NCBI GenBank assembly: GCA_030538415.1
Contig: JAUNTY010000032.1
Coordinates: 1-34,387 of the forward strand
Reading direction: 5' to 3'
From: Neisseria sp.
GTDB lineage: Bacteria > Pseudomonadota > Gammaproteobacteria > Burkholderiales > Neisseriaceae
DNA: 34,387 nt
The notes beneath the pieces are model-generated. The model ran no database searches and was not told the DNA's origin. It was given only the letters and a program-made list of their open reading frames with translations. The translations under genes were made by a program, and so were the position numbers. Positions 25,954-27,914 of the stretch are shown in pieces. Numbering within the stretch: the first letter of the stretch is position 1; every line of letters starts with the position of its first letter.

Positions 25954-26520
25954 ATGCCGTGGAATTTTCCGATTTTCCTCACCTGGATGCGCGTCTTGCT
26001 GATTCCGGTGTTTACCGCCTTGTTTTATCTGCCCGACAACTGGCTGCATCCGCAAACCCTCAATTGGATTGCGGCCGCCATCTTTGCCGTTGCCGCCATA
26101 ACCGATTGGTTTGACGGCTTTCTGGCGCGGCGCTGGAAGCAGACTTCCGATTTCGGCGCGTTTCTGGATCCCGTGGCCGACAAGCTGATGGTGGCGGTGG
26201 CGCTGATTCTGCTGGTGAGTGTGGGGCGCACCTATGCCATCTTCGCCATGATTATCATCGGCCGCGAAATCACCATTTCCGCCCTGCGCGAATGGATGGC
26301 GCAAATGGGCAAGCGCAACAGCGTGGCCGTGGCCACCATCGGCAAATTCAAAACGGCGGCGCAAATGGCGGCCATTTTGCTGCTGCTTGCCGGTTTGCGC
26401 GATTTTCACGGTTTTGACCTGATTATGGTGGGTAACATCTTGATGTTTATCGCATCCGTGCTCACCATCTGGTCGATGTTCTATTATCTGAAAATGGCGT
26501 GGAAAGAATTCCAGCAATAA
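25954..26520 (+). CDS. pgsA: CDP-diacylglycerol-glycerol-3-phosphate phosphatidyltransferase
   Basis: This 188-residue inner-membrane enzyme makes phosphatidylglycerophosphate, the committed step to phosphatidylglycerol and cardiolipin. The CDP-alcohol phosphotransferase signature D-G-x2-A-R-x8-G-x3-D-x3-D is complete as DGFLARRWKQTSDFGAFLDP followed by VAD, near residues 53-75. Six membrane helices are evident, and the N-terminal NFPIFLTWMRVLLIPVF is typical. A moderate AAAAAAGG ribosome site lies 10 or more bases before the ATG. The downstream Gly-Cys-Leu tRNA cluster repeats the pgsA-glyW-cysT-leuZ order of E. coli, so this linkage is old. Confidence 0.95.
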   Translation: MPWNFPIFLTWMRVLLIPVFTALFYLPDNWLHPQTLNWIAAAIFAVAAITDWFDGFLARRWKQTSDFGAFLDPVADKLMVAVALILLVSVGRTYAIFAMIIIGREITISALREWMAQMGKRNSVAVATIGKFKTAAQMAAILLLLAGLRDFHGFDLIMVGNILMFIASVLTIWSMFYYLKMAWKEFQQ

Positions 26521-26537
26521 TTTTCCGATAAAAAGGC

Positions 26538-26565
26538 TTGACAGTAAATTTACAGGAACTATAAT
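26538..26565 (+). promoter_or_regulatory. Strong promoter of the tRNA operon
   Basis: Consensus TTGACA (26538-26543) and consensus TATAAT (26560-26565) are separated by 16 bases, 41 bases before the first tRNA-Gly. It is the best sigma-70 promoter in the window. Confidence 0.88.
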
Positions 26566-26606
26566 AGCGTTCTCTTGTTTGAACAGCAATGCGCAAACAA
26601 GCCCAA

Positions 26607-26682
26607 GCGGGAATAGCTCAGTTGGTAGAGCGCAACCTTGCCAAGGTTGAGGTCGCGAGTTCGAGACTCGTTTCCCGCTCCA
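26607..26682 (+). tRNA. tRNA-Gly (GCC), copy 1
   Basis: This 76-base cloverleaf has acceptor GCGGGAA/TTCCCGC, anticodon loop TTGCCAA (GCC), T-loop GTTCGAGAC and an encoded CCA end. It reads glycine GGC and GGU codons. It is the first of three identical genes. Confidence 0.97.
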
Positions 26683-26703
26683 TCCTCCTGCATTTGAGTC
26701 CAA

Positions 26704-26779
26704 GCGGGAATAGCTCAGTTGGTAGAGCGCAACCTTGCCAAGGTTGAGGTCGCGAGTTCGAGACTCGTTTCCCGCTCCA
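26704..26779 (+). tRNA. tRNA-Gly (GCC), copy 2
   Basis: This is identical to copy 1 and begins exactly 97 bases later, with the same 21-base spacer (TCCTCCTGCATTTGAGTCCAA). Confidence 0.97.
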
Positions 26780-26800
26780 TCCTCCTGCATTTGAGTCCAA

Positions 26801-26876
26801 GCGGGAATAGCTCAGTTGGTAGAGCGCAACCTTGCCAAGGTTGAGGTCGCGAGTTCGAGACTCGTTTCCCGCTCCA
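26801..26876 (+). tRNA. tRNA-Gly (GCC), copy 3
   Basis: This is identical to copies 1 and 2, again offset by 97 bases. The sequence after its CCA (GACACATC) differs from the spacer, marking the end of the tandem repeat. Confidence 0.97.
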
Positions 26877-26928
26877 GACACATCAAGCCGTTTACACCAC
26901 TGAAACGGCTTGTTTTACAGGTTCCAAA

Positions 26929-27002
26929 GGCGGAATGGCAGAGTGGTTATGCAGCGGCCTGCAAAGCCGTGTACGCCGGTTCGATTCCGACTTCCGCCTC
27001 CA
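26929..27002 (+). tRNA. tRNA-Cys (GCA)
   Basis: This 74-base cloverleaf has acceptor GGCGGAA/TTCCGCC, discriminator T, anticodon loop CTGCAAA (GCA), T-loop TTCGATT and an encoded CCA. U73 and the GCA anticodon are the cysteine identity elements. Confidence 0.96.
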
Positions 27003-27026
27003 TCATTTTTCAGAAAAGCCTTCCAC

Positions 27027-27104
27027 GGCGGGGTGGCAGAGTGTTTATGCGATAAGGGGTGCAACCCTTATACAGGCCGGTTGAAATCCGCGCCCCCGCC
27101 TCCA
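27027..27104 (+). tRNA. Aberrant tRNA-Cys-like gene
   Basis: This 78-base sequence is related to the preceding tRNA-Cys: GG-TGGCAGAGTG in the D region, TGCAA in the anticodon region and TCCA at the end. The acceptor GGCGGGG/CCCCGCC pairs perfectly with two base-pair changes compensated on both sides. The anticodon arm ATAAGGG/CCCTTAT is new, seven pairs long, and leaves a loop of six (GTGCAA) or eight bases. The D-loop GG has become GT, T-loop C56 has become G, and the T stem needs a bulged C. It may be a pseudogene, but the compensated stems suggest a structured RNA. Standard translation use is doubtful. Confidence 0.55.
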
Positions 27105-27140
27105 GTTTCATATCTTTTTCGGCATGCCGGCAAAGGTATC

Positions 27141-27230
27141 GCCCGAGTGGTGAAATAGGTAGACACAACGGACTTAAAATCCGTCGCCTCTAATACAGGC
27201 GTACCGGTTCGATTCCGGTCTCGGGCACCA
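27141..27230 (+). tRNA. tRNA-Leu (TAA)
   Basis: This 90-base class II tRNA has acceptor GCCCGAG/CTCGGGC, discriminator A, anticodon loop ACTTAAAA (TAA), a long variable arm (CGCCTCTAATACAGGCG) and an encoded CCA. It reads UUA and UUG codons. Confidence 0.95.
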
Positions 27231-27239
27231 CCATCACAA

Positions 27240-27262
27240 ACCACCTGAGGGTGGTATTTTTG
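27240..27262 (+). terminator. Terminator of the tRNA operon
   Basis: ACCACC and GGTGGT form a stem around TGAG, followed by ATTTTTGTG, ten bases after tRNA-Leu. Confidence 0.8.
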
Positions 27263-27466
27263 TGCCTGCGAGACCGACAGCCGGAATCATGTCCGTTCAA
27301 AATACCCGTCTATCGATGCCGGTTCAAAAGCAAACTATATATGACCGCGCCACTTCATTTTGCATACGGCGCTGCTGCGGCTTGCTGCCTTGAATGGGAC
27401 GCTCATTTTCTCGGTATTGGGTCACTTTTTTAGGCCACTTTTTGAATGGGTATCAACCGCCGTTCC

Positions 27467-27573
27467 TATAGTGGAAAAACTTAATTTTTAATACAAGGCA
27501 GCAAGCCGCAGACAGTACAAGTAGTACAGCCAGGCGCAGCAACGCCGTAGTAGAAATTAAGTTTTTTACTATA
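27467..27573 (-). repeat. Correia-type element 8, 107 bp
   Basis: The arms are TATAGTGGAAAAACTTAATT and TATAGTAAAAAACTTAATTT, with the core in reverse orientation (GCAAGCCGCAGACAGTACAAG). It is an arm variant between elements 1 and 6. Confidence 0.85.
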
Positions 27574-27701
27574 TCATTTTGGTTGTAAGTCGGCGGGCAA
27601 TGGTGCCTGACAACCCGAGGCCGTCTGAAAGCTTTCTCTGAGCAGAAGCCGGTCGGGCATCGCAATCCGGCCTACAGCGGAAGCTGTGTTCATTCAAAAA
27701 A

Positions 27702-27808
27702 TATAGTGGCTAACTTAATATCTGCTACGGCGTTGCTGCACCTTGTCGTACTATCTGTACTGCCTGCAGCTTGCTGCCTTGTATCAAATATTAAGTTTAG
27801 CCACTATA
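27702..27808 (+). repeat. Correia-type element 9, first of a tandem triplet
   Basis: The arms are TATAGTGGCTAACTTAATAT and TATAGTGGCTAAACTTAATA. It is almost identical to element 3 at 3053. Its terminal TA is shared with element 10. Confidence 0.87.
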
Positions 27809-27914
27809 TAGTCGAATAAATGAGTTTCTGCTACGGCGTTGGCTCGCCTTGTCGTACTATCTGTACTGCCTGCGGCTCGCCGCTTTGTATCAGAATCTCA
27901 TTTCTCCGACTATA
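27807..27914 (+). repeat. Correia-type element 10, middle of the triplet
   Basis: The arms are TATAGTCGAATAAATGAGTT and TATAGTCGGAGAAATGAGAT. It is the same class as elements 2 and 5. Its final TATA (27911-27914) is also the start of element 11. Confidence 0.87.

Follow-up and report, generated by a model that had tools for sequence, protein, structure and literature searches.

The Escherichia coli tRNA operon glyW-cysT-leuZ is the source of the 3'ETS-leuZ sponge, a regulatory RNA cut from it as a 3' trailer fragment. The equivalent cluster in Neisseriaceae holds, between cysT and leuZ, a tRNA-like element (hereafter X) that is unlike that fragment. Three described systems come closest to it. 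The peptidoglycan tRNA-Gly of Staphylococcus aureus has the GG of positions 18-19 replaced by UU or CU and, in the passages cited, weak elements for EF-Tu binding (PMC4052509, PMC8007984). The non-canonical selC* tRNA-Cys is described in part of its source as having a GCA anticodon, U73, an 8/4 acceptor/T stem, a long variable arm, a T-stem bulge (51a) and a lengthened anticodon stem (PMC7609411). Bacillus cereus tRNA-Other, as portrayed in the sections cited, is a poorly charged pseudo-tRNA found off polysomes whose deletion alters gene expression (PMC3399842).

We analysed a 34,387-nt stretch of DNA from Neisseria sp. (GCA_030538415.1, contig JAUNTY010000032.1; hereafter the window), in which a reading made from the sequence alone (the sequence-only reading) had pointed to a 78-base tRNA-Cys relative between tRNA-Cys and tRNA-Leu. 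This element is indeed present, as a single copy in the window's genome, in the following setting:

26538-26565, forward strand: sigma-70 promoter-like site (TTGACA-16-TATAAT) upstream of the tRNA cluster, matching the consensus at 12/12 positions
26607-26682, 26704-26779 and 26801-26876, forward strand: three tRNA-Gly(GCC) genes called by ARAGORN, tandem 97-nt copies
26929-27002, forward strand: ordinary tRNA-Cys(GCA), called by ARAGORN (59.7 bits in Rfam)
27027-27104, forward strand: element X, a tRNA-Cys-like RNA of 78 nt (106.2 bits, E 6.8e-23, with the covariance model R1)
27141-27230, forward strand: tRNA-Leu(UAA), called by ARAGORN
27240-27255, forward strand: terminator-like hairpin closing the cluster (6-pair stem, T tail)

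The promoter-like site is the only one in 26450-27350, where shuffled sequences average 0.5. The hairpin is weak taken alone, because two such sites occur in the region against 1.1 in shuffles. X itself was left uncalled when ARAGORN was run on the window, and Rfam gave zero matches over it at E<=1 (2.2-kb stretch) or E<=10 (101-base stretch). A YrlA-like Rfam match at 26729-26853 was dismissed as chance, being below its gathering score and overlapping two of the tRNA-Gly genes in part. In the T stem of the ordinary tRNA-Cys, C50 and A64 are mismatched, as they are in the genus copies listed. Downstream of the cluster lie inverted repeats, 113 and 81 nt long, that resemble mobile elements (27467-27579, 27696-27808 and 27815-27895).

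Within X the following parts can be distinguished:

27027-27033, forward strand: 5' strand of the acceptor stem (GGCGGGG), pairing with 27094-27100; paired in 27/27 genus sequences
27036-27050, forward strand: D arm, with G18 present and U in the place of G19; this GT is invariant in the 27 genus sequences
27051-27072, forward strand: anticodon arm, a 7-pair stem plus position 26-44, with the loop GUGCAA
27073-27075, forward strand: end of the variable loop (CAG), its last base being G48, with G15:G48 possible
27076-27093, forward strand: T arm (GCCGG/CCGcGC), the 3' strand having one bulged base at 27091
27101-27104, forward strand: discriminator U73 and encoded CCA; UCCA in 42/42 distinct sequences

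X shares with ordinary bacterial tRNA-Cys its acceptor and D-stem sequence, anticodon, U73, CCA and place in a Gly-Cys-Leu cluster, and the tRNA-Cys at 26929-27002 is its probable parent type. All of the anatomy claimed by the sequence-only reading was borne out in the window: the acceptor differs from that of tRNA-Cys by two pairs changed on both strands (GGCGGGG/CCCCGCC versus GGCGGAA/TTCCGCC), the anticodon arm has been replaced by a perfectly paired seven-pair stem (27052-27058 with 27065-27071), the TGCAA loop, discriminator U and CCA are kept, the D loop has GT for GG, and the T stem has a bulge. The anticodon loop has 6 rather than 7 nt. The claimed change of C56 to G is likewise present there but does not hold as a general trait, as G56 is unique to the window's genome among 42 distinct forms, the others having A, C or U. 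Position 26-44 is G and A in the window and is paired in some relatives. RNAalifold favours 6+6 over 7+5 pairs for acceptor and T stem, and the data are compatible with both; the single-sequence folding energy of X is not striking (z -1.3) and was not used as evidence.

To examine the genus, we used the stretch from tRNA-Cys to tRNA-Leu as a query against 46 genomes. Of the 43 that matched, 40 carry X, in 42 copies that are all 78 nt long and include 27 distinct sequences. In the alignment of these 40 genomes conservation drops at 27027 and 27104: compared pairwise, the copies of X average 93.0% identity, those of tRNA-Cys 93.5% (39 rows of 74 nt) and those of tRNA-Leu 93.4% (39 rows), but the 20 nt before X average 38.8% and the 20 nt after it 36.0%. 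The few bases preceding X are weakly conserved, and the base 5'-adjacent to it is a pyrimidine in all 40 genomes (C in 20, T in 20).

The fold is preserved along with the sequence. In the genus alignment (27 distinct sequences), double-sided compensatory changes occur in 8/8 anticodon-helix pairs, and the 30 compensatory cells compare with 7.8 in shuffles, none of 500 of which scored as high; slid control structures paired far worse than the anticodon helix. The outermost pair, 26-44, is unpaired in 9/27 sequences, and pair types are no more numerous than by chance (355/500 shuffles reach the genus value). A second alignment, of 17 chosen forms with the full set of six 78-nt forms from other genera among them, likewise had no more pair types than shuffles (145/500); it adds a compensated acceptor pair in one sequence and, in two sequences from other genera, a compensated T-stem pair beside the bulge (C-G to U-A). 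The nine 75-nt forms found in three other genera (g5, g6, g10) combine a stem of 5 pairs with a 7-nt loop and add the 26-44 position; they hold three compensated pairs, a count equalled by 99/500 shuffles, and 9 compensated cells, equalled by no shuffle. Selection for a fold, which had been proposed from the single sequence, is thus supported by covariation genus-wide and, through a small number of pairs, in the T stem and acceptor elsewhere in the family.

The sequence-only reading had also offered a recently rearranged pseudogene. In one strain X does resemble a broken tRNA, uncalled by ARAGORN as it is, and a decaying tRNA-Cys gene would be expected to show neutral drift and broken pairing. 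We found 98.2% of cells paired, compensatory changes in homologues rather than random unpaired substitutions, a length held constant across the genus copies, a level of identity equal to that of the tRNA genes and far above that of the flanks, and homologues in other Neisseriaceae, across nine genera. These comparative data refute the pseudogene, to which we give next to no probability. Because X is preserved like real tRNA genes, it is probably a working RNA and not a decayed gene, with a job that probably lies outside ordinary protein synthesis.

We then built the covariance model R1 from the 27 distinct genus sequences and ran it on 83 genomes of the family. Matches were obtained in 72, of which 63 carry X (65 copies of 75-78 nt, 42 distinct sequences), representing 9 of 12 genera (g1, g2, g3, g5, g6, g7, g9, g10 and g12). 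The 78-nt form is found in Neisseria and five other genera. Two genera are without X (g4, g8) and one is uninformative (g11). Nine genomes have an ordinary tRNA-Cys only: G016, G042 and G043 of the window's genus (g1), G051 and G053 of g4, and G058, G061, G063 and G064 of g8. In the remaining 11, both X and a strong match to tRNA-Cys were missing even under laxer filters; the locus is therefore probably missing from these assemblies, and they, the sole g11 genome among them, were excluded from the counts either way. Synteny is preserved throughout, with tRNA-Cys before and tRNA-Leu after X in 23/23 X genomes outside g1 and the same order in the 40 g1 genomes (in G027 the sequence breaks into N inside tRNA-Leu). 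Tandem pairs of X, near-identical within each genome, lie between tRNA-Cys and tRNA-Leu in G006 and G026 (L040, L041).

This placement bears on the idea that X is a processing spacer, a structural punctuation that would aid cleavage of a long tRNA precursor. X does sit inside a cluster, and no promoter-like site of its own was found. A spacer would have no use for the invariant UGCAA, U73 and CCA, though, and the three genus genomes lacking X retain tRNA-Cys and tRNA-Leu across a gap of 31 nt; we regard a spacer as hardly plausible.

A tree of PgsA, sought in 55 loci, was obtained for 45 genomes (the other 10, namely G047, G048, G055, G056, G057, G058, G063, G064 and the two intended outgroups, had no match and were dropped). 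The three X-lacking g1 genomes group in a single clade (97/94), with X-bearing genomes around it. G051 and G053 fall apart from this clade, and the tree requires two changes. From this pattern, it is most likely that X was present early in the Neisseriaceae and was lost at least twice, with the fork that holds the g1 clade supported at 80/78, weak deep forks, a midpoint root and zero g8 genomes in the tree. In the X-lacking g4 and g8, the acceptor of tRNA-Cys equals that of X, for which ancestry and chance are both possible.

Outside the family X was not seen. Among 399 genomes of the order, searched with stricter filters, matches clearly above the level of tRNA-Cys (E ~1e-16 or better) came from Neisseriaceae alone, and among 369 genomes of the class a threshold of E 1e-11 was passed only by the genome of the window itself and by a single ordinary tRNA-Cys. 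A phage collection gave zero X matches, and a plasmid collection gave matches in two N. gonorrhoeae records only (NZ_CP119140.1 and NZ_CP119142.1). These two records are chromosome-sized, at 2.17 Mb, yet filed in the plasmid collection, whose tables carry no RNA genes and so do not bear on whether X is annotated. A scan of named records returned 16 contigs, 14 from Neisseria (including N. gonorrhoeae, N. polysaccharea, N. elongata and N. sicca), one from Bergeriella and one from Conchiformibius; we inspected the gonococcal copy in its genomic place.

We compared the 42 distinct X sequences of the family with what is required of a tRNA-Cys. Bacterial cysteine determinants are U73, G2-C71, C3-G70 and GCA, with a G15:G48 core in E. 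coli tRNA-Cys, in the passages cited (PMC9976931). The whole of this CysRS-substrate set is present in X: G2-C71, C3-G70, G15 and the UGCAA loop occur in 42/42, the GCA anticodon (G34 C35 A36), U33 and A37 are invariant, G48 is found in 41/42 (one has C48), and the acceptor is paired in 42/42, once with a G-U. In the control, 42 genus tRNA-Cys rows of 74 nt (one 75-nt row was left out), C48, the D-loop GG and TTCG each occur in 42/42. X therefore keeps an E. coli-like G15:G48 core that its neighbour lacks.

What X has lost concerns other parts of the molecule. Unlike ordinary tRNA-Cys, it is without G19 and a regular T stem in 42/42 sequences, the 3' strand of that stem having 6 nt with the bulge; C56 is lost in 32/42 (retained in 10/42), and the 7-nt anticodon loop has given way to one of 6 nt in 33/42. 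Thus the canonical G18G19 and C56 elbow contacts are broken, as the sequence-only reading had held, with regard to G19, but G18 is kept in 42/42, and a Watson-Crick 19-56 pair (A-U or U-A) is possible in 27/42 (9/9 of the 75-nt and 18/33 of the 78-nt forms, the window's not among them). The 75-nt form has the 5-pair, 7-nt anticodon arm of canonical elongator tRNAs, with a U-G closing pair; the 78-nt form, with 7 pairs and 6 nt, does not. Against the RF00005 gathering score of 29 bits, the X of the window fails, and the 75-nt form of G076, the sole other form scanned, reaches 21.2 bits. Nor does X have the architecture of selC* tRNA-Cys, as far as its source describes it: the two share a non-canonical shape, GCA, U73, a T-stem bulge and, in the 78-nt form, a lengthened anticodon stem, whereas X has a 7/5 or 6/6 rather than an 8/4 acceptor/T stem, no 8-pair acceptor, a short variable loop and its bulge in the 3' strand.

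These features allow us to weigh whether X, odd as its shape is, serves as an auxiliary tRNA-Cys and still reads UGC/UGU, perhaps in special conditions. Invariant GCA, U33 and A37, the regular anticodon arm of three other genera and the tolerance of odd tRNAs elsewhere, as reported in the passages cited (PMC7609411), would all suit a decoder. The shortened loop of most forms, the T-stem bulge of all of them, the scores below the tRNA threshold and the normal tRNA-Cys that adjoins X in the genomes read speak against one, and we consider this role improbable.

The retained and lost features can be set beside the aminoacylation machinery. CysRS matches numbered one per genome in 21/21 genomes, and no second CysRS was found in them, a point that separates X from selC* tRNA-Cys in the parts of that work cited. 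The part of the T stem around pairs 49-65 to 51-63 is a contact site for EF-Tu, and X shows, at the level of sequence, changes at 18-19 and in the T stem that may weaken EF-Tu binding. Taken together, the kept CysRS determinants, the single CysRS and the elbow and T-stem changes suggest a molecule visible to CysRS and not to EF-Tu or the ribosome.

We therefore propose, giving it somewhat less than an even chance, that X is a functional, CysRS-recognised tRNA-like RNA that works off the ribosome, donating or carrying cysteine for some non-ribosomal reaction. A duplicated tRNA-Cys gene would have given rise to it, in the ancestor of the Neisseriaceae or earlier. X would be transcribed inside the glycine-cysteine-X-leucine cluster, and would be trimmed to a molecule of 75-78 nt with its CCA end encoded. 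The cell's single CysRS probably binds and charges it through the kept cysteine identity set. Decoding would be blocked by the altered elbow and by the bulged T stem, a site of EF-Tu binding; a further bar, present in Neisseria and five other genera, would be the longer anticodon stem with its 6-nt loop. The dedicated task of X would then be to donate or carry cysteinyl groups. The full promoter match that precedes the cluster speaks for the donor reading; the 19-56 pair possible in 27/42 sequences and the fact that X is dispensable in some lineages speak against it, and the 7-pair anticodon stem, which would shift the anticodon relative to U73, may hinder CysRS.

A donor RNA calls for a partner enzyme, and we searched for four chosen Pfam families in 12 X-positive and 9 X-negative genomes, with 14 control genomes. 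FemAB (1/21 genomes; controls 3/14) and MprF-type proteins (0/21; controls 7/14) do not track X, which counts against the donor reading. For PEARL (Lant_dehydr_N) the only match was short and partial and lay in a genome with X (1/21), and for CDPS there was none (0/21); both searches say little because their controls matched in 0/14.

That FemAB and MprF-type searches gave no donor enzyme is in keeping with the main rival, a regulatory tRNA-like RNA that would serve as decoy, buffer or cysteine-status sensor via CysRS or another tRNA-binding protein, or would pair with targets through its UGCAA loop. The loop is invariant while the stem drifts in sequence with its pairing kept, the CysRS determinants are retained, X is absent in some lineages, and B. 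cereus tRNA-Other offers a precedent in the sections cited (PMC3399842). On the other hand, the constancy of U73, CCA and acceptor pairing exceeds the needs of a loop-pairing RNA, and any target or protein partner is hypothetical; we judge a regulatory role rather unlikely. The same loop could instead make X a bait for an anticodon nuclease or another tRNA-directed toxin, shielding tRNA-Cys. Such a bait would keep the UGCAA of tRNA-Cys and need not decode with the remainder, but it leaves the conservation of the acceptor end unexplained, and we hold it to be very unlikely.

With a cysteinyl donor as the preferred reading, the S. aureus non-proteinogenic tRNA-Gly, as its cited descriptions have it, is the nearest parallel: cognate identity is kept, the GG of 18-19 is replaced and the T stem is altered in the EF-Tu zone. 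X differs from it in being of cysteine type, in the bulge of its T stem, in its long anticodon stem closed by a loop of 6 nt, and in having no FemAB-type partner that tracks it. Like B. cereus tRNA-Other, it is a tRNA-like RNA with a presumed role outside translation, but tRNA-Other, in the sections of its source cited above, has a Trp anticodon, lies beside an island and occurs within longer RNAs that respond to iron, whereas X belongs to a tRNA cluster and is conserved family-wide.

No such RNA in Neisseriaceae was found in titles and abstract starts among the literature matches listed. X goes unmentioned in the main-text portions consulted of meningococcal and gonococcal RNA and ProQ studies (PMC4981724, PMC4423775, PMC4176332, PMC4148029, PMC7272453), where notice in a supplementary table is possible; in passages from the meningococcal RNA studies among the first four of these, tRNAs are stated to have been left out. 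A candidate stable RNA, conserved in a group as well studied as that of N. gonorrhoeae, appears to have escaped recognition, perhaps by lying below the acceptance level of tRNA finders. We tentatively suggest, as possible rather than probable, that Neisseriaceae, the gonococcus among them, possess a second, dedicated cysteine tRNA, charged by the ordinary CysRS but barred from the ribosome, which feeds an undiscovered cysteinyl transfer or cysteine-sensing circuit, lost with the RNA in a few lineages. If X is charged, one would ask what reaction off the ribosome requires cysteine; if uncharged, it would be a family-wide regulatory tRNA mimic. The matter is directly testable, with the natural X-lacking lineages as a control.

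Some individual features of X recur in tRNA-Cys genes elsewhere in the order. Three other families have a second tRNA-Cys with one D-loop G missing (G087:C16:57155-57227, G177:C67:28978-29050 and G210:C244:2661-2733), outside any Gly-Cys-Leu cluster; the pattern for such genes matched 3/399 order genomes. Two genomes of one genus (G237:C126:29343-29417 and G388:C1:524077-524151) have a tRNA-Cys whose T-stem 3' strand is one base longer, like that of X, with a normal D-loop GG. None of the five was counted as X, because the full set of X features is absent. No shared neighbour was seen when their open frames were compared by eye, and ARAGORN calls each of them tRNA-Cys, the sole tRNA in its 1-kb stretch.
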